This document shows positions 8,391 through 43,782 of a stretch of DNA of 53,276 nt, in pieces; the first letter of the stretch is position 1, and every line of letters begins with the position of its first letter. Origin of the DNA: Desulfomonilaceae bacterium (GTDB lineage Bacteria > Desulfobacterota > Desulfomonilia > Desulfomonilales > Desulfomonilaceae); contig JAVHLK010000031.1 of NCBI GenBank assembly GCA_031082285.1, positions 1-53,276 on the forward strand, given 5' to 3'. The position numbers were made by a program, and so were the translations under genes. Under the pieces are notes generated by a model. The model was not told the DNA's origin. It did not search any database and worked only from the letters and a program-made list of their open reading frames with translations.

Positions 8391-8912
8391 TTACTTAATT
8401 ATGGCCCCTTCCTCCAGCGTCAACTTCTTCTCAAAATCCTCCCAGAAGACTTCTTCGCTCTTGCGCCAGTCTGAACCAAACTTCTTGTTGAAGAGGCTTC
8501 CCACCTGATCCAAGGCTTTCTTCCAGGCAGACTGATAGTTAAGCTTAATGACGTCCTCCAAGAACGGGACCAGCGATCCAAGCTTCTCTTTGGGCAGGTA
8601 GGCTCGGGCGCCAAGCTCAATGGATTTCTTCAGAGCTTCCGGGGTGAAGGCATGCGCGGTCAGCATGACCACTGGAAAACCGGCACTGTTGGCTATTTGG
8701 AGCAAATCGAAACCCCGGACGCCCATAATGTCCAGAATCACCAAATCGTAGGTGTAAGACACGAGGTACTGCTGAGCATGCTCGAAGGTCGTGCAGGTAT
8801 GCAAGGTCACGTTCGCATACTCTGAAAGCTCTTCCTCAATGATGTCCAGGACGTCCTCCTCGTCATCCACCGCCAGGATCAACTTGTCTTGTAAGATTTC
8901 GGAACTGTGCAT
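8391..8912 (-). CDS. single-receiver response regulator with helical C-terminal extension
   Basis: A 173-residue cytoplasmic protein. Residues 9-125 form a CheY-like receiver with acidic pair Asp16/Asp17, phospho-acceptor Asp61 (LVILDIMG), Thr85 and Lys108. Residues 125-173 form a charged helical tail that matches no DNA-binding domain I know. Output may therefore be by protein interaction, or the tail may be a docking element. The start at 8912 is preferred because AAAGGA lies seven bases upstream. No histidine kinase is nearby, so it is an orphan in this context. Confidence 0.88.
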   Translation of the reverse strand: MHSSEILQDKLILAVDDEEDVLDIIEEELSEYANVTLHTCTTFEHAQQYLVSYTYDLVILDIMGVRGFDLLQIANSAGFPVVMLTAHAFTPEALKKSIELGARAYLPKEKLGSLVPFLEDVIKLNYQSAWKKALDQVGSLFNKKFGSDWRKSEEVFWEDFEKKLTLEEGAIIK

Positions 8913-9594
8913 GAGTTTTCCTTTATCTCCAGGGCCTGGTCTCTCCAGATGCCCCATCATCATTGGATATGAGTGGAAGCACTCGCCTTGTTAAGCATTT
9001 AGCCGCGGACCGTGTCGTTGAGGAACGGCCTGATCCTCCGGATCCGAAGGACGGCACTCGCTCTACCGCGTCACGGTCATCCGTCCATACTAATGCTTAC
9101 CTATGAAGACGCGTGAAGTCAACTCTTTACAAGAGCCAATTTGCAGTCGGATAAGAGGGATTCCGGCGACCTTAACGATTCTCGTAAGATAGGCGTTCCA
9201 AAAAAACCGGCGTAAAACCGGACCGGAAGCTTGTGAAAAGGGTGCTTGGGCGGGCACGAGGCATTTATGGGGACGCGCTTTCAATTTCGCGGCGATCCCG
9301 ACCCGGTTCCTCAACGGTCCCACCGATGGCTCCCGTCATTGCGAGGAGCTCAGTCCAGCGCAGAACGCGGGAAAGCCGGCTCAATGCTTCATCAAAGGCA
9401 GGTATTGCCTTGCCCTCCCTTCAGTCGGGCTCGCAATGACGAACGTGAAAGCGTCCGCAGTATTCAGGGAGCGATACTACACTTGTTGCAGACTTGTGAT
9501 ATAGTCTGACCTTGGACACGCCGGGATTCGGCCGAGCAATCCCGAAACCGGTCCGGAAGATTCACAAAACCCGCTGAACCGCACAGAGGTCCAA
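8913..9594. other. long intergenic region upstream of glgP
   Basis: About 680 bases lie between the divergent response regulator and glgP. I see no credible gene. The central part holds the inverted repeat at 9334-9441. Promoters for both flanking genes must lie here, but none stands out. Confidence 0.5.
9334..9441. repeat. inverted-repeat element (REP/MITE-like)
   Basis: A perfect 12-bp terminal inverted repeat (CGTCATTGCGAG at 9334-9345, CTCGCAATGACG at 9430-9441) bounds about 85 bases. The same arm sequence occurs in the repeat at 22-97. An internal block at 9360-9381 matches 19 of 22 bases at 39483-39504. No coding capacity. Confidence 0.7.
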
Positions 9595-12153
9595 ATGACC
9601 GTACGGAGATACATTGTGGTCCCCCCGATGGAGGGAGGACTGGAAGATCTGAAGGAAATAGCCGGAAACCTCTGGTACTCCTGGAACATGGAGGCCGTGG
9701 AACTGTTCGATCATCTGGATGAACAAGTCTGGCAGGACACCAATCACAATCCGCTTCAAACGCTGATAAGAATCTCGCGGCAGAGGCTCAAAGACATCCG
9801 GGACGATGAAGGTTATCAGGAACACGCCGCCAGGGTTCGACAGAAATACGAATCGTATCTCAAACGCACCAGACCCTATGATTTTGACCTCGATCATCCG
9901 GTGGATTTCATCACGGCCTACTTCTCGTTGGAGTTCGGATTGACCGAATCGTTGCCGATCTATTCCGGGGGCCTGGGACTGCTTGCCGGAGACCACCTCA
10001 AGTCTGCCAGCGATCTCAGTTTGCCCCTCGTGGGGGTCGGGTTGATGTACCAAGAGGGCTATTTCAGGCAGAGACTCTCACGAGACGGGTGGCAACAGGA
10101 GTATTACCCGCGGACGGAATTCGACACGCTTCCACTGGAAAAGCAAACGGATTCCAACGGGAATACCCTGCTCGTGGAGGTGGATCTGGCGGGAGAGAGA
10201 CTACTCTCCAGAATTCTGAAAATTAACGTCGGTCGAGTTGCACTCTACTTGCTCGACGCGGATATCCCGGAGAATCCCCCTCACCTGAGGGCGACAACCG
10301 CCAGACTCTACGGCGGGGACGAAGAAATGCGTATTCGTCAGGAAATTCTCCTTGGAATAGGGGGCTGTCGCGCTCTGGAGGCTATGGGCATTTCGCCCGC
10401 CGTGTATCACTTGAACGAAGGCCATGCCGCATTCGTGCTTGTGGAGAGGGTTCGTCACTACGTGGAAGACGAAAAGCTGTCATTGGAAGAAGCGCGCCAG
10501 ATGGCGGCGAGCGAAAGCGTCCTCACGATACATACACCCGTACCGGCAGGGAACGACGTGTTTGAGCGGAATCTCATGGAGAAATATTTCGGTCGGTTGG
10601 TCTCCCGATTCGGAGTGAGTTTCGAGTCTTTTCTCGGTTTGGGACGCAAGCATCCCGAAGACAGGTCCGAAGGTTTCTGTATGACCGTCCTGGGTTTGAG
10701 GCTGACTTGTAGGACAAACGGCGTGAGCCGGCTGCATGGTCAAGTTGCCCGGGACATGTGGCATGAGGTATGGCGGACGGCCGACTGTGAAGATGTTCCC
10801 ATCGGATCCATTACCAACGGCGTTCACATCCCGTCGTACATTTCCCGAGACCTCAACAGGCTATATGATCGATACCTGGAGCCCGGTTGGACGGAGGATC
10901 CGGACAGTCGGAAGATCTGGCAACGCGCTGAGAAAATCCCCGACACGGAACTGTGGCGAAATCACGAGCGATGCCGGAGTCGACTCGTTCACTTTGCCCG
11001 TCGTCGTCTGGTCCGCCGTCTTGAAGCATGCGGGGCGTCAAACAAGGAGATTGACGCGGCGAGACAGGTACTCGACCCGGAAGTGCTCACCGTGTGCTTC
11101 GGAAGACGTTTTGCGACCTACAAGCGGGCCAATCTCCTGTTTCGGGACCTCGAGACCCTTGCGCGGATCGTGGCCGGGCCCGAAAGACCCCTGCAGCTGA
11201 TATTTGCGGGGAAAGCCCATCCGAGGGACAACGAAGGCAAGGCGCTGATTCGACAAATCATCGATGCAATCAAGGACGAACCGTTCAGGAATCGAATCGT
11301 CTTCATCGAAGACTACGATATCAACGTGGCAAGGTACATGGTTCAAGGTGCGGACGTCTGGCTGAACAACCCCAGGAGACCTTTGGAAGCGTGCGGCACC
11401 TCGGGAATGAAGGCTGCGGCGAACGGCGCTCTCAACGTCAGCGTCCTGGACGGTTGGTGGGACGAGGCATACCAGGGAGACAACGGGTGGGCTATAGGCC
11501 GCAGAGAGCAATATGACAATCCCGAACATCAAGACGAAATCGAGAGTCGGGCCTTGTACGATATTCTGGAGGAGAGCGTGAAGCCTCTGTTCTATCAGAG
11601 GGGGATAGACGAAATGCCGAGGCAATGGATCCGTATGATGAAACGCTCCATCCAGACCATTTGTCCCCGGTTCACTTCATTGAGAATGGTATCCGATTAT
11701 GTCCAATCCGCGTACGTTCCGTCGGCCCACAACTCGTCCGATCTTAAGCGTGACAACTACGCAGGATTGAAAGAGATGGTCCACTGGCAAAAAGCCGTTC
11801 GAGACGATTGGCACAAGATCGCGGTGAGCGACGTCACGGTGCGCAATGAAACGGAAGCGGTGAAGGGCCGGGACATAGAGGTCATTGTCACCGTGGATAC
11901 GGCCGGACACAAACCCAAAGAAATCAGTGTGGAACTGATCCATGGTCCGTTGGACCTCAAAGACGATTTCAAGGTGCGTTACGTGACCCCCCTGCAGCCC
12001 GATCCCGTTGCCCGGGATGCCAACGGTGATGTCCGGTTTTCACGCCGAATTCCCCTCAGTCACTCAGGCCTGTACGGGTATTCGGTGCGAGTGACGCCGT
12101 ACCATAAGAATCTTCCCTTATCTCAGGTGTTTGATTTGGTATGCCGCGGATAA
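9595..12153 (+). CDS. glgP: alpha-glucan (glycogen/maltodextrin) phosphorylase, DUF3417 type
   Basis: This enzyme releases glucose-1-phosphate from storage or malto-oligosaccharide glucans using PLP. The 852-residue protein has the long N-terminal DUF3417 region (PPMEGGLEDLKEIAGNLWYSWN near residues 10-32) typical of the archaeal/bacterial phosphorylase subfamily, not of the E. coli type. The PLP lysine is Lys606 in GTSGMKAAANG. YSGGLGLLAGDH near 122 and NEGHAAF near 275 are further family landmarks. AGAGGT lies four bases upstream of the ATG. There is no adjacent glycogen synthase or branching enzyme. It converges with a small secreted-protein gene. Confidence 0.95.
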   Translation: MTVRRYIVVPPMEGGLEDLKEIAGNLWYSWNMEAVELFDHLDEQVWQDTNHNPLQTLIRISRQRLKDIRDDEGYQEHAARVRQKYESYLKRTRPYDFDLDHPVDFITAYFSLEFGLTESLPIYSGGLGLLAGDHLKSASDLSLPLVGVGLMYQEGYFRQRLSRDGWQQEYYPRTEFDTLPLEKQTDSNGNTLLVEVDLAGERLLSRILKINVGRVALYLLDADIPENPPHLRATTARLYGGDEEMRIRQEILLGIGGCRALEAMGISPAVYHLNEGHAAFVLVERVRHYVEDEKLSLEEARQMAASESVLTIHTPVPAGNDVFERNLMEKYFGRLVSRFGVSFESFLGLGRKHPEDRSEGFCMTVLGLRLTCRTNGVSRLHGQVARDMWHEVWRTADCEDVPIGSITNGVHIPSYISRDLNRLYDRYLEPGWTEDPDSRKIWQRAEKIPDTELWRNHERCRSRLVHFARRRLVRRLEACGASNKEIDAARQVLDPEVLTVCFGRRFATYKRANLLFRDLETLARIVAGPERPLQLIFAGKAHPRDNEGKALIRQIIDAIKDEPFRNRIVFIEDYDINVARYMVQGADVWLNNPRRPLEACGTSGMKAAANGALNVSVLDGWWDEAYQGDNGWAIGRREQYDNPEHQDEIESRALYDILEESVKPLFYQRGIDEMPRQWIRMMKRSIQTICPRFTSLRMVSDYVQSAYVPSAHNSSDLKRDNYAGLKEMVHWQKAVRDDWHKIAVSDVTVRNETEAVKGRDIEVIVTVDTAGHKPKEISVELIHGPLDLKDDFKVRYVTPLQPDPVARDANGDVRFSRRIPLSHSGLYGYSVRVTPYHKNLPLSQVFDLVCRG

Positions 12154-39601: not shown

Positions 39602-40669
39602 TCACGTCAACGTGATTGCCTTCTCAGGGCACATCTCTTGGCAGCAGAAACACGTGATGCACGTGTCGGCATCGACCTGGGGCAGTCCGCCGATCATTGA
39701 CAGAGCCGAGACCGTACAGTGATCCACGCACGTTTCGCAACCGGTACACAATTCGGGATCGGCCCGCGGACGCAACAGCGTTCGGCTGTGAATCATCTCC
39801 TGAAGCGCCTTGTTGCCCAGAATGGCTTCACCGCCCAACGGCGGAAGTGTGAAGTCCGGTATCCTCCGCAGCTCACCCGCAACCTTCGTCTTGTCGAGGT
39901 CGTACTCTCCGAGTCCCTTTTGCTGCGCCCGCCGGAGGAATCCCAACTTGGCCGGATCGCACCCCATCATAAACGCAATGACCGAATCCAGGGCAACGGC
40001 GTTGTCGGAGGCGAGGATCAGTCCTATGTCCCTGAGGTGCGGAGAAGCCGGTCCGTTTCCCTCCATGCCCACCACCGCGTCCACTATGAACAGGTCTGGC
40101 TGCCGGATCTCAAACACATCCACGATCACTTCATGGAATCGACGAGGATTGCCGGCGATCTTGTGAAGCTTCGCCTTTTGTGCTCCAGGAAGAAAACCGT
40201 AACTGTTCTTGATCGCTCCCGTCATGACGGTGAGGCCGTGAGTCTTGAACTTGGGAAGACTGATGATTACGTCCGCTTCCATCACCGCTCGGGACACGCT
40301 CACAGTGGAAATGAAATCAGGATTGAAATCCACCCGTATGGATTCGTCCCCGATGTTTTGGTAGTGGCGTCCCGATGCTTCCATCAGTCCCGTCTGTTGG
40401 AAGCTTGCTTCGTTGGCCCCATAGCTGAAGATACCGGGGTTGTCGCCGACCGTGATGGAAGCGGGCTTCATGGTTTCCACCTTTTCCACCACCGCGCGTA
40501 CTACCGCAGGGTGAGTAACGATGCCTTCGTCCGCCTCCGAGCCGCGAAGCACATTGGGTTTAATCAGGACCGTCTTGTCCCGCACGTCGGTCGGGAATAT
40601 CTCGAATGCCCTGTCAACGGCCCGACGCGCATCTTCGTAGGTGCCCGGTTCGATCATGACTTGGAACAT
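39602..40669 (-). CDS. DUF362 protein with C-terminal 2x[4Fe-4S] ferredoxin domain
   Basis: A 355-residue protein. The N-terminal DUF362 domain has the pattern TVLIKPNVL, VGDNPG and ISLPKFKTHGLTVMTGAIKN. The C-terminal part binds two 4Fe-4S clusters through CxxCxxCxxxC at Cys308/311/314/318 and Cys337/340/343/347, plus one extra Cys342. Electron transfer is expected, but the DUF362 partner reaction is unknown. The family is abundant in anaerobes. The start at 40669 has AAAGGT seven bases upstream. Confidence 0.92.
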   Translation of the reverse strand: MFQVMIEPGTYEDARRAVDRAFEIFPTDVRDKTVLIKPNVLRGSEADEGIVTHPAVVRAVVEKVETMKPASITVGDNPGIFSYGANEASFQQTGLMEASGRHYQNIGDESIRVDFNPDFISTVSVSRAVMEADVIISLPKFKTHGLTVMTGAIKNSYGFLPGAQKAKLHKIAGNPRRFHEVIVDVFEIRQPDLFIVDAVVGMEGNGPASPHLRDIGLILASDNAVALDSVIAFMMGCDPAKLGFLRRAQQKGLGEYDLDKTKVAGELRRIPDFTLPPLGGEAILGNKALQEMIHSRTLLRPRADPELCTGCETCVDHCTVSALSMIGGLPQVDADTCITCFCCQEMCPEKAITLT

Positions 40670-40852
40670 GGTTGGTACCTTTCTCTCCCTATGATCCGTC
40701 ACGCAAGTGTGCTCAAGGCCGCGGTGAGTCGTGTCGTCGTGGATTCCCGCTCGACGAGGCCGGTCTTTCGGGTCCTTCGGGAAAGACGTCTCCGGAGGTA
40801 CCCAAGGATGATCTCATACACGGGGTCACGTGCCCGAAACGTTTCCGGTCCG

Positions 40853-41551
40853 TCAATAGCATAGGGGCACACAGGCATAGTTGACACAGCGTGTGCCGCT
40901 CGTCAAGGACCGCCACCATGAGCCGATCCACCGCACCGGATCCAGGCAGGCAACGGTACTGGTTGCGGCCTGTGGCTGCTGAACGGACACGGGGCCCGGC
41001 TGGATTTGAGTTCCGGGGCTCGGTCCGGTCTGCGGTCGGGCCGGAACAGGATACGGGGCTGCCGGGGGGAGGCCCGCCGCGGTTGCAGGGACGTCCCATC
41101 CTGTTCCTGCGTGAACCGTAGTCGGCACACAGGTGTAACACTGTACCGATGGCGTGTACCCACTCTGCGGAGTCATCGGCCAATGACCGGCCGCCTGTCC
41201 GACCCGCCCTTGCTGCAGAGGCGTCTGGCCTGCACTACGTACCTGCCTGGCACCGGCCGCGGCCGGAACATTCCAGGAATCCGTCTGAGCGTACGCGGGC
41301 GGCCCCCATACCTGGTAACAGGTCGTGACGGTGGTCGCTCCCGCCTGAGGAGCCTGCGCGTTCCACGCGGGAGGGGTCACCTGCGCCGGATCGGTTGCGG
41401 ATGCAGTGCCGGAATTGGGCGGAACGACATTGACATTGATGTGATTCGCATTCGCGCCGGAGGCCTTGACGGCCGACGCCCATGACGCGGTCAGAAACGC
41501 CGAAACAACGGCGGACACCAATAATATGGTTACTATTACACGCATTTGCAT
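40853..41551 (-). CDS. secreted Cys/Pro-rich repeat protein
   Basis: A 232-residue protein with an N-terminal signal peptide (residues 1-27, cleavage near ASA). The mature part is rich in Ala, Pro, Thr, Gly and Gln, with seven cysteines at 78, 138, 141, 202, 222, 227 and 231. Two units about 60 residues apart share [TS]-V-x-C-Y followed by a W-N/D-V-P-A motif (71-100 and 131-160), and a third, partial unit starts with TVAC near 200. The C-terminus is CVPLCY. GGAGG lies seven bases upstream of the start. It is the third gene of a unit with a flavocytochrome and a small membrane protein. Function unknown; disulfide-bonded envelope or haem/metal-binding roles are guesses. Confidence 0.75.
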   Translation of the reverse strand: MQMRVIVTILLVSAVVSAFLTASWASAVKASGANANHINVNVVPPNSGTASATDPAQVTPPAWNAQAPQAGATTVTTCYQVWGPPAYAQTDSWNVPAAAGARQVRSAGQTPLQQGRVGQAAGHWPMTPQSGYTPSVQCYTCVPTTVHAGTGWDVPATAAGLPPAAPYPVPARPQTGPSPGTQIQPGPVSVQQPQAATSTVACLDPVRWIGSWWRSLTSGTRCVNYACVPLCY

Positions 41552-41640
41552 GGAGGCACCTCCAGGTAACACTTCGAGTATCGTCATGCCGACATTTCTA
41601 CTATTTGGATGCCTGCTGTGTCCCGAAGATTCAAAACCTC

Positions 41641-41814
41641 TCATGACCGCGGGTGGAGAGGCACGGAAACCTCTCCGGAAGCAAGCGCGGCGGCCTTCGA
41701 CGGCGCCGCTGGAGGTTTGAAGACATACGTGCGGAGCAGCGCCAAGCCGTACACCGCCAGTACGACCACGATCACGAACAGTACGCTGAATATTCTCAGA
41801 TTTCTGATTCTCAT
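41641..41814 (-). CDS. 57-residue single-span membrane protein
   Basis: A small gene on the minus strand encoding 57 residues. A basic N-terminus (MRIRNLRIF) is followed by a hydrophobic helix at about residues 8-27 (VLFVIVVVLAVYGLALL) and a short Pro/Ala-rich tail. AGGAG lies five bases before the ATG. It begins 33 bases after the flavocytochrome stop and ends 89 bases before the secreted repeat protein, so all three are likely co-transcribed. It may be an accessory subunit of the membrane reductase. Confidence 0.6.
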   Translation of the reverse strand: MRIRNLRIFSVLFVIVVVLAVYGLALLRTYVFKPPAAPSKAAALASGEVSVPLHPRS

Positions 41815-41847
41815 CGCAACTCCTGGTGTCGGGGCGTTCGGGCCGTT

Positions 41848-43158
41848 CTACAGGGAAAACTCTTCTCTTCGCATGCGACGGTACGGCACGCCCATAGAGC
41901 GAAGCCCCCGGATGACCACCTTGGCCATCCCGGGGGGAACACACACGTAATAGGCCCTGTCCTCGGAATCCGGCCCGACCAATCGAACGAGCGCCTCGGG
42001 GGTGAGTCGGCCGGATTGCCCCGTCCATCCCTCGTCAGGCTTGCCGACTACATGTATTACCGACAATCTCGGTCGAGTCCCGTGCTCCATCTCCTCGATC
42101 TCGGACCTGAAGACGATGTCCTGTTCCGTGCTGTTGGCATAAATGAGTAAGACTTCGGCATCATTACCCGTGTCCCGCATGTGCCGTAGCATGCTCATGA
42201 ACGGAGTAATTCCGATCCCGCCCGCGATGAAAACATACTCTTTGTCCTGGGGATATAGAGTATAGGAGAATCGTCCAAACGGCCCTTGCACGATCGCCGT
42301 GTCGCCGGGAGCGGTCCGCCCGATCGTCGAAGTGAAATCGCCGGACTCCTTTATCGTCGAGCTTATGTGTTCCCGCTGCGTCGGGCTCGAGGAAATCGTC
42401 CAGTGATGCTCTTCGACCGGGACGCCCTCCGACCGGTACAGAGTGACGAAATGAAACTGACCGGGATGGTGGTCGTAGATCCGCTCGCCTTCGGGAGGGG
42501 CAAGTTTGACTGTCCAGACGTTGTGAGTCTCCTGTTCCACGTCTGAGACGCGATACGGCCGCCGCTCCAATCGCATCGGTTGCACCAGCTTGCGGTCGAC
42601 GTAAGCCCAGACGGTCAACCCGAGCAGACCAAACCACAGGAGGACCATGGGCTTTGGACCCATATCGTATCCCGACCACCAGCTATGGACAAAGGCGCAA
42701 GGAATGACGATCATCGCGAGAACATTGTGAAACCGGCGCCACTGTTCAAAGCCGAGTCCGAACCGCGCGTACCACATGCTCACGCACACGTTGATCAGCA
42801 GGAGCACAAGCACGGCCTTGCCCAGCAACACGTACCAGGGTTGCTCAAGAGTCAGGAGCAGCTTGACTCCCGCACCCCCGTAGGCCATAAGCGGCGGGTG
42901 AGACAGCAGGAGTGCCGCAGCGAATAGCCCCATGTACCGGTGAAACCGTGAGATTACGTCCAGACCGAAGGGTCGTTCCACAAACTTCCAGCGTGCCGTG
43001 AGGACCGGCTGAAGCGCGATGATGCCGTATGCCGCGAATGCCGCGCTGGTGCCGGTCTCGTGCATGAGGGTCATCTCGCCTTTCATCCACAGAGCGGCTA
43101 CGGTAATCAGAGGACTGAGTATCAATAAACCATAGACAACGACCAGGAGTACGCCCAT
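41848..43158 (-). CDS. ferric reductase-like transmembrane flavocytochrome
   Basis: A 436-residue membrane oxidoreductase of the ferric-reductase/NADPH-oxidase type. The N-terminal half has six or so membrane helices with four histidines placed to hold two b-haems (His73, His87, His144, His158). The C-terminal half is a flavodoxin-reductase-like module with HPGQFHFVTL and HHWTISSSP (FAD) and AGGIGITPFMSML (NAD(P)H). It should pass electrons from cytoplasmic NAD(P)H across the membrane to an outside acceptor. The start at 43158 has GGAGG close upstream. It heads a three-gene unit. Confidence 0.9.
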   Translation of the reverse strand: MGVLLVVVYGLLILSPLITVAALWMKGEMTLMHETGTSAAFAAYGIIALQPVLTARWKFVERPFGLDVISRFHRYMGLFAAALLLSHPPLMAYGGAGVKLLLTLEQPWYVLLGKAVLVLLLINVCVSMWYARFGLGFEQWRRFHNVLAMIVIPCAFVHSWWSGYDMGPKPMVLLWFGLLGLTVWAYVDRKLVQPMRLERRPYRVSDVEQETHNVWTVKLAPPEGERIYDHHPGQFHFVTLYRSEGVPVEEHHWTISSSPTQREHISSTIKESGDFTSTIGRTAPGDTAIVQGPFGRFSYTLYPQDKEYVFIAGGIGITPFMSMLRHMRDTGNDAEVLLIYANSTEQDIVFRSEIEEMEHGTRPRLSVIHVVGKPDEGWTGQSGRLTPEALVRLVGPDSEDRAYYVCVPPGMAKVVIRGLRSMGVPYRRMRREEFSL

Positions 43159-43533
43159 AATCCCCTCCGCACTATTGTGAGCCGTCTTCTTCGAAACCGA
43201 ACTACTTGCGCGCTCAATATCCGTCCGGAGACACAATTATTTCCCCCCCCGGTATCATGAATATAGTATCAGCATATCGCCGTGGATCTCGAAGTCAAGG
43301 ACTTCAACGCGACACGTCATCGCTACGGGCCCGTTGACGTTGGGGAAACTTTTCCCTTGCCGTCCCTGGACCTTTTGGCTATTCGTGACTACATGTAATA
43401 CGAATTCTCGGTCGGGAGAACGGCGACCGTACGTGAGATTCGTACGCGATCGCCCATCCGATCGATCGGATTGGAATTGCGTTCCGCTGATGGTCTCCCC
43501 AGGCTTCGGAAAGCAGTCAAATCAGGAGTGACA
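43159..43533. other. intergenic region between divergent genes, no gene seen
   Basis: About 375 bases lie between the flavocytochrome and the zinc-ribbon gene. It includes a C8 run near 43242 and an AT-rich stretch (43255-43280) that may carry the flavocytochrome promoter, but no clear -35/-10 pair is visible. Confidence 0.4.
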
Positions 43534-43782
43534 ATGAACAGGTCTTATCGTCCGAGATACGGAGTCCCGGCACGCTCGCCCCGACAGAAGGAAAAGCAGT
43601 TCGAAAAGTTGCGGGCAACGGAACTCTATTGCCCTAAGTGCGGTCGCGCTACCCCCGTGAGAGAGCGACTCCTCTTGGTACTCCCCGAAGGGGATAAATA
43701 CGAGTATCTCTGCGTCTACTGCGGGACGTCGTTGGGAGACAAGATCGAGCGAGGAGAACCCAAGCAGCTGGTAGTCCTTTAA
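43534..43782 (+). CDS. small zinc-ribbon protein
   Basis: An 82-residue basic protein with a zinc ribbon made of CPKC (33, 36) and CVYC (60, 63), preceded by an Arg/Lys-rich N-terminus. Such proteins bind nucleic acid or protein partners; the exact role is unknown. AGGAG lies five bases before the ATG, and in-frame codons upstream are not part of the protein. Confidence 0.75.
   Translation: MNRSYRPRYGVPARSPRQKEKQFEKLRATELYCPKCGRATPVRERLLLVLPEGDKYEYLCVYCGTSLGDKIERGEPKQLVVL

Follow-up and report, generated by a model that had tools for sequence, protein, structure and literature searches.

When a gene for a transmembrane flavocytochrome is followed on the same strand by one for a tiny membrane peptide and one for a secreted protein, the question arises as to which of the three belong together, and to which acceptor the electrons would be delivered. 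Such an arrangement is found in a Desulfomonilaceae bacterium whose genome is a draft of 5.6 Mb in 314 contigs; the whole stretch of its DNA that was analysed, of 53,276 nucleotides, is hereafter called the window. A sequence-only reading of this DNA had proposed a single three-gene unit made of the flavocytochrome (P0003), the peptide (P0002) and the secreted Cys-containing protein (P0001).

Organization of the locus

Three minus-strand ORFs, separated by gaps of 33 nt (P0003-P0002) and 89 nt (P0002-P0001) and preceded by ribosome sites, are indeed present as that reading described them, judging from the ORF coordinates and the sequence (Table 1), the ATG of P0001 having a GGAGG just 5' to it. 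A consensus scan of positions 40600-43600 reports a single terminator-like site, within P0003, and none between the genes. In terms of codon usage, the own frames of P0003, P0002 and P0001 score z values of 8.5, 3.1 and 1.6 against shuffles, respectively, and one reverse-strand frame of P0001 outscores its own; with so weak a codon signal, P0001 is therefore the least certain gene of the three. Divergently from P0003, positions 43534-43782 of the window encode a small zinc-ribbon-like protein, whose Pfam matches are all below cut-off and for which tblastn found no match around the flavocytochrome genes of 11 family and class relatives.

Table 1. Features of the flavocytochrome locus, in positions of the window
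Feature	Position	Strand	Description and basis
P0003, NOX/ferric-reductase-type flavocytochrome b (bis-haem membrane, FAD and NAD(P) domains)	41848..43158	-	436 aa; Pfam, four invariant His, SpNOX fold
P0002, single-span membrane peptide, proposed output subunit	41641..41814	-	57 aa; position beside relatives, selection, core profile
Ungapped 30-residue core of P0002 (R2, L6, A25, R28)	41725..41814	-	Core profile
P0001, orphan secreted Cys-containing ORF, outside the conserved unit	40853..41551	-	232 aa
Ribosome site of P0003, GGAGG	43164..43168	-	Sequence
Ribosome site of P0002, AGGAG	41820..41824	-	Sequence
Promoter-like site upstream of P0003	43271..43298	-	Putative, consensus match only, 9/12

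The flavocytochrome

P0003 combines in one chain the Ferric_reduct (PF01794), FAD_binding_6 (PF00970) and NAD_binding_1 (PF00175) domains, all above the Pfam cut-offs, and none of the best 25 of its 27 NCBIfam matches exceeds the cut-off. Five residues never vary across 58 aligned relatives, namely His73, His87, His144, His158 and, close to the C-terminus, Phe434. The haem ligands of bacterial NOX enzymes obey a His-X12/14-His rule according to a passage of PMC5676040 and, if this rule is read as 12 to 14, the two pairs of P0003 (H73/H87 and H144/H158, each X13) conform to it. At the level of the fold, a profile of twelve P0003 relatives matches the SpNOX chain 8qq7 with an E of 2.5e-22 over profile positions 41-421, the chains that score above SpNOX covering the dehydrogenase half only. 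In the same line, the AF2 model of the window pair, in which the two proteins were tethered, has SpNOX as its top structural match (8qt6; Z 34.3, rmsd 2.5, 391 aligned, model 1-437) for a P0003-SpNOX identity of 18%, this VIA-align list hardly testing the peptide helix, with at least one fifth of its rows covering model residues 55-438 only. In the light of the Pfam domains, the four invariant His and the SpNOX fold, the membership of P0003 in the bacterial NOX/ferric-reductase superfamily, as a predicted full-length protein of SpNOX fold, is therefore well supported. The same family and fold lend support to the earlier proposal that P0003 would export electrons from NAD(P)H by way of haem.

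Conservation of the peptide beside the flavocytochrome

P0003 occurs in 5 of the 18 family genomes examined, its own included, the other four proteins being 55-66% identical; two of the three nearest named P0003-bearing relatives are labelled Desulfomonile. In all five genomes the peptide is found downstream, with gaps of 28-36 nt and one exception of 329 nt, which holds an insert. It is likewise downstream in six of six class relatives whose P0003 is 44-47% identical, and in a seventh, at 33% identity, a tetrahaem cytochrome with an N-terminal helix occupies its place. When 14 window genes were searched by tblastn in 11 family and class loci, P0003 was recovered in 11/11, P0002 in the three nearest, and no other gene at all; the other peptides, being too divergent for tblastn with P0002, were found by position and pattern. 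At L033 (2742-3070), which is the same genome region as L044, a palindromic insert of about 300 bases and of the CCACGGGTTTCAACCCGTGG type parts the flavocytochrome from an intact peptide.

A wider survey relied on the P0003 profile alone, which is blind to the peptide, and the best 80 of 347 named-genome stretches were taken; since one of these loci runs off its contig, the counts rest on the other 79. A separate peptide is present in 67 of them and a fused one in 3, none is present in 8, and a cupredoxin lipoprotein is found instead in 1. Flavocytochrome and peptide are separated by a median of 12 nt, and by at most 60 nt in 65/67 cases. The 70 peptide-positive loci span 13 phylum names and three unassigned labels, a count that is approximate because the labels stem mostly from metagenome-assembled records, 'Myxococcota' for instance including records titled Deltaproteobacteria, some of them from the window's own class. 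With a loose automatic rule, defined as a hydrophobic span near the start of an ORF within 120 nt, a peptide-like ORF is detected at 69/79 flavocytochrome ends versus 92/456 when the ends of the remaining long ORFs of these loci are considered, three loci (L080, L085 and L105) being counted via other ORFs and two (L044 and L084) being missed.

How far this association reaches was further delineated by a scan of the phylum, in which 29/395 genomes gave a flavocytochrome match, and which provided 25 further loci, some from the same genomes as named loci. By eye, the peptide or its cytochrome version is present in 17 of these, an unrelated secreted ORF in 2 and nothing in 6, making 8/25 without the peptide, mostly distant ones; among the six loci without any ORF at this place, one flavocytochrome is 46% identical to the nearest query and the rest are at most 40% identical. 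As for weaker reductase relatives, the rule picked three hydrophobic ORFs in 18 loci (L014-L031), none of which is peptide-like by eye, and no annotated peptide gene is found behind the Paracoccus plasmid relative (29.5% identical), the next annotated gene being convergent. In a quick tree of 77 flavocytochromes, from which three of fewer than 380 residues were left out, the peptide accompanies 11/11 members of one group and 55/57 members of another, which includes the window (support 92); outside both groups it is seen in one more pair, other lines being mostly devoid of it. Two of the nine named loci without the peptide, the cupredoxin case among the nine, fall inside the main peptide-bearing group.

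Judged from these gene neighbourhoods, the conserved unit is one of two genes, P0003 and P0002, not three, and the window itself conforms to its definition, with a peptide core shortly downstream of a P0003-like gene. The earlier reading had placed both downstream genes with the flavocytochrome; inspection of the neighbours of homologous flavocytochromes upheld this for P0002, which is present beside them, and spoke against it for P0001, which is absent.

Core of the peptide and selection

P0002 is made of a basic N-terminus followed by one hydrophobic span. It reaches no model of Pfam or NCBIfam, DUF2627 (Pfam, E 0.019) being its sole match, below cut-off; a weak match, also below cut-off, was recorded between the 30-aa peptide of L120 and NF005268 (NCBIfam, E 0.011). 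When 82 distinct peptides are laid side by side from the start codon without gaps, Arg2 is shared by 61/82, Ala21 by 50/82, Ala25 by 47/82 and Arg, Gln or Lys at position 28 by 58/82, the start codons having been picked by a score that favours ATG, a ribosome site and basic residues and thereby biases toward Arg2. Besides, position 28 carries the first polar residue after position 22 in 59/82 peptides. Helices commonly pack through small residues spaced four apart, a spacing seen here at positions 21 and 25. The controls for a ten-fold cross-validation were 1775 hydrophobic 30-mers taken from these loci at more than 450 nt from the end of the flavocytochrome gene; 65/82 held-out peptides beat 99.9% of them, 77 beat 99% and all 82 beat 95%. 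These scores indicate that the core is homologous across relatives, beyond mere hydrophobicity.

The window shares 27/33 core residues with its two nearest relatives, with a dN of 0.11-0.12 and a dS of 3.26 or not computable, P0003 being 65-66% identical in the same two pairs. When the window and its three nearest relatives are considered, the core dN ranges from 0.07 to 0.21 for a dS that is at least 1.65 or not computable, and comparisons with the more distant L035 yield a dN/dS of 0.23-0.42. Such substitution rates indicate that, among the closest relatives, purifying selection acts on the P0002 core. Past the core, conservation between relatives is lost, and the window peptide has a short tail with neither a metal nor a haem site.

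Exchange of tails and natural fusion

What follows the core in the relatives may be nothing, a Pro/Ala tail, a His-rich tail, a mono-haem cytochrome c or a multihaem cytochrome. Over the 77 rows of the tree, 20 have a short tail, 18 are bare (about 30-45 aa), 15 carry a mono-haem cytochrome c and 5 a His-rich tail, the remaining labels being long His/Met-rich (5), fused (3), multihaem (2), cupredoxin (1) and absent (8); cytochrome tails amount to 17/77. These labels change at least 24 times across the tree, keeping in mind that they were assigned by hand, with arbitrary cut-offs separating the tail, bare and His-rich classes. Pfam confirmed Cytochrom_C in both of the mono-haem tails tested.

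Some loci show further variations at this place. At L105 (7387-7857), labelled Brocadiaceae, a lipoprotein-like ORF with a cupredoxin/COX2-like domain (Pfam) stands where the peptide would be. The peptide of L052 (7309-8025) bears a long His/Met-rich extension, which matches Metal_resist below cut-off. Nearby, positions 8810-11212 encode a P-type ATPase that has heavy-metal-binding domains. Similar long His/Met-rich versions of the peptide are seen at L055, L068, L082 and L086.

In Stieleria sedimenti and in strain TBK1r, which has two copies, the helix and its His-rich end form the C-terminus of the flavocytochrome itself. Because the dehydrogenase domain is cytoplasmic, the fused helix would run from inside to outside, and this natural fusion ties helix and flavocytochrome together in these species. 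The AF2 model of one natural fusion has a mean pLDDT of 91.6 and a pTM of 0.88, its helix spanning residues 444-472 (pLDDT of 87, 98 and 97 for blocks 441-450, 451-460 and 461-470), and that of the tethered window pair has a mean pLDDT of 90.2 and a pTM of 0.86, with blocks 451-480, nearly the whole P0002 core, at 91-98 and the linker below 60; the chains being fused or tethered, the proximity of helix and flavocytochrome is forced in both. When covariation of the two partners was measured as mutual information (68 pairs, Neff 56), no membrane contact signal emerged: of the 60 top-scoring pairs, 45 lie in the dehydrogenase domain, where column numbers alone would predict 33, and the membrane helices account for few; as relatedness confounds this measure, no interface was derived from it. 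The suggestion that the tiny protein could be a subunit nonetheless gains support from its conserved place beside relatives, from purifying selection and from the natural fusion.

Electron donor and acceptor

In six named loci (L050, L054, L067, L074, L077 and L086; raw count, Pfam), zwf and/or gnd lie within 6 kb of the flavocytochrome gene, some of these glucose-6-phosphate or 6-phosphogluconate dehydrogenase neighbours being broken or partial; at L067, the flavocytochrome is flanked by gnd-pgl on one side and rpe-zwf on the other. Neither gene was found among the window neighbours examined. These oxidative pentose-phosphate neighbours point to NADPH, which is probably the donor of P0003.

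Regarding the acceptor, SpNOX is reported, in passages of PMC11564096, to use O2 and weakly Fe(III) in vitro and to reduce cytochrome c directly, oxygen not being needed; there, its authors question a physiological role of O2 or Fe(III) as acceptor and suspect a protein. No CxxCH-bearing ORF of at least 100 aa is found in the window and, since its peptide keeps a short tail only, the acceptor would have to be found elsewhere outside the cytoplasm, as a cytochrome, a metal or an oxidant. In the Planctomycete locus L080 (5113-5895), a multihaem cytochrome gene lies just upstream of the flavocytochrome (Pfam), with relatives of it also upstream at L054, L084 and L085; at L054, L080 and L085 it is preceded by a further ORF, without a Pfam match at L080, where this was checked.

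Proposed mechanism and alternatives

With a probability that we put at roughly two in three, P0003 and P0002 would constitute a two-subunit membrane NAD(P)H:extracytoplasmic-acceptor oxidoreductase. The reduction of cytochrome c by SpNOX, together with the acceptor left open for this enzyme, leads to a scheme in which electrons from NAD(P)H would cross FAD and two haems b before reaching an acceptor outside the cytoplasm, the peptide being docked in the membrane as output subunit. More precisely, cytoplasmic NAD(P)H, probably NADPH, would transfer a hydride to the FAD of P0003, from which single electrons would pass to the inner haem (His73/His144), then to the outer haem (His87/His158), and leave at the outer face. 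The P0002 helix would pack on the P0003 core, N-terminus inside and C-terminus outside, and would both stabilise P0003 and mark the place where electrons leave; its counterpart in many relatives would tether the acceptor, whether mono-haem cytochrome c or multihaem cytochrome, or bear a tail rich in His that may bind metal. The physical complex, its topology and direction, and its donor and acceptor are what we infer. A broader proposal, to which we give slightly less than even odds, is that a large clade of bacterial NOX homologues would act in vivo as NADPH:cytochrome (or metal) oxidoreductases rather than as oxidases. Their one-helix output subunit, near-obligate, would serve as a shared socket, and its extracytoplasmic tip, exchanged in evolution between nothing, a His-rich tail, a cytochrome c and a multihaem cytochrome, would choose the acceptor.

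P0002 could also be a subunit of assembly or stability only, as CydX is for cytochrome bd, in which case the tails would be cargo that any anchored helix carries. The bare forms, to which can be added peptides of exactly 30 aa in several genomes of the phylum scan, agree with such a role, as does the description of CydX as a single-helix subunit needed for enzyme function (PMC6005532, PMC4325964). However, redox or His-rich domains were repeatedly added at the outer end of the helix, which suggests that this end is near the electron exit, and a purely structural role therefore appears rather unlikely. The superfamily and fold of P0003, as well as the in vitro use of O2 and Fe(III) by SpNOX, would also suit a classical superoxide-producing oxidase or an assimilatory ferric reductase to which the peptide is incidental; the conservation of a peptide with cytochrome tails and the doubts of the SpNOX authors mentioned above nevertheless render this improbable.

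The secreted open reading frame

In the three-gene unit of the sequence-only reading, P0001 would be the extracytoplasmic electron acceptor, a metal binder or a disulfide substrate. In its favour, P0001 is on the same strand, 89 nt away, with a good ribosome site and a signal-peptide-like start, contains 7 Cys and two loose repeats (copies of CY...W[ND]VPA, in a protein with no Glu and one Lys), and the one terminator-like site reported for the region falls within P0003. Yet P0001 has no CxxCH or haem motif and a weak coding signal, and no match to it was found in 59 relatives (E up to 0.01), nor, among the matches listed, in the phylum sample (394 other genomes, E up to 0.001, at most 7 first-look candidates per genome being scored), two sets that overlap, nor by tblastn around the flavocytochrome genes of the 11 family and class relatives. 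Its own locus is its sole match in its own genome, its match to DUF6535 is weak (Pfam, E 0.23, below cut-off), and the third place of the named loci holds six unlike ORFs and no recurring secreted gene. The confinement of its matches to its own locus and the lack of a recurring third gene speak against P0001 as a member of the unit, so that the three-gene proposal now looks very improbable. P0001 is a lineage-specific neighbour outside the conserved unit, for which a lineage-specific role is possible; it could be a secreted protein of recent origin, or an ORF present by chance.

Finally, although related loci have a cytochrome c on the same helix and the window tail is unconserved between relatives, it is scarcely credible that the P0002 of the window is a decayed, non-working remnant of an anchored cytochrome c gene, given the core dN of 0.07-0.21 against a large or non-computable dS and the wide recurrence of bare forms.

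Comparison with known systems

The accessory proteins p22phox and DUOXA are eukaryotic multi-span proteins that are not known to carry cytochrome domains. The pairs NOX2-p22phox and DUOX-DUOXA resemble P0003-P0002 in joining a flavocytochrome to an accessory membrane protein (passages of PMC5676040 and PMC11031084), whereas the partner P0002 is one helix. On the bacterial side, SpNOX of Streptococcus pneumoniae resembles P0003 in its whole-length fold, with bis-haem b and FAD/NAD(P) domains (passages of PMC5676040, PMC11564096 and PMC11031084). It differs in being described as independent of a p22phox-like subunit (in a passage of PMC5676040), and the available parts of the same three papers mention no single-span partner; the word 'operon' is absent from the main texts of PMC5676040, PMC3591440 and PMC11031084.

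In MsrPQ and MsrQ-like flavinylation systems, as would be the case for P0003, a PF01794 membrane haem protein passes electrons outward, and it is a separate extracytoplasmic redox domain that receives them; a C-terminal NAD domain is often found (parts of PMC8238504). Genes for ApbE and for an FMN-binding protein are typical of their clusters (same source), whereas the partner of P0003 is a bare helix or a helix with a cytochrome c, and inspection of the neighbour clusters common to at least four loci revealed no recognisable ApbE or FMN-binding gene. The CydX, CydY and CydZ proteins of cytochrome bd share with P0002 the feature of a single-helix small protein encoded just 3' of a haem enzyme (parts of PMC4325964), and CydX-type subunits are the best analogy for the bare peptide form. 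P0002 differs from them in that its enzyme is another one, in that it adjoins P0003 and not cydAB, and in that it has no Pfam or NCBIfam model of that kind; the words 'fusion' and 'fused' are absent from PMC4325964.

Among the open papers listed by the literature searches, considered by title and abstract, none describes a single-span partner of bacterial NOX homologues, most subscription papers and all preprints lying outside this scope. Within the open literature searched, the enzyme is of a known kind, and what appears to be new is its conserved micro-subunit, with tails that can be exchanged. P0002, itself without a Pfam or NCBIfam model, points to a very small membrane-peptide family. Since the physiological role and the acceptor of bacterial NOX are left open in PMC11564096, at least in the part available, the conserved partner, which often is or anchors a cytochrome c, is a candidate; were it confirmed as a near-obligate output subunit, the peptide would fill the place of the protein partner that bacterial NOX enzymes have so far lacked.
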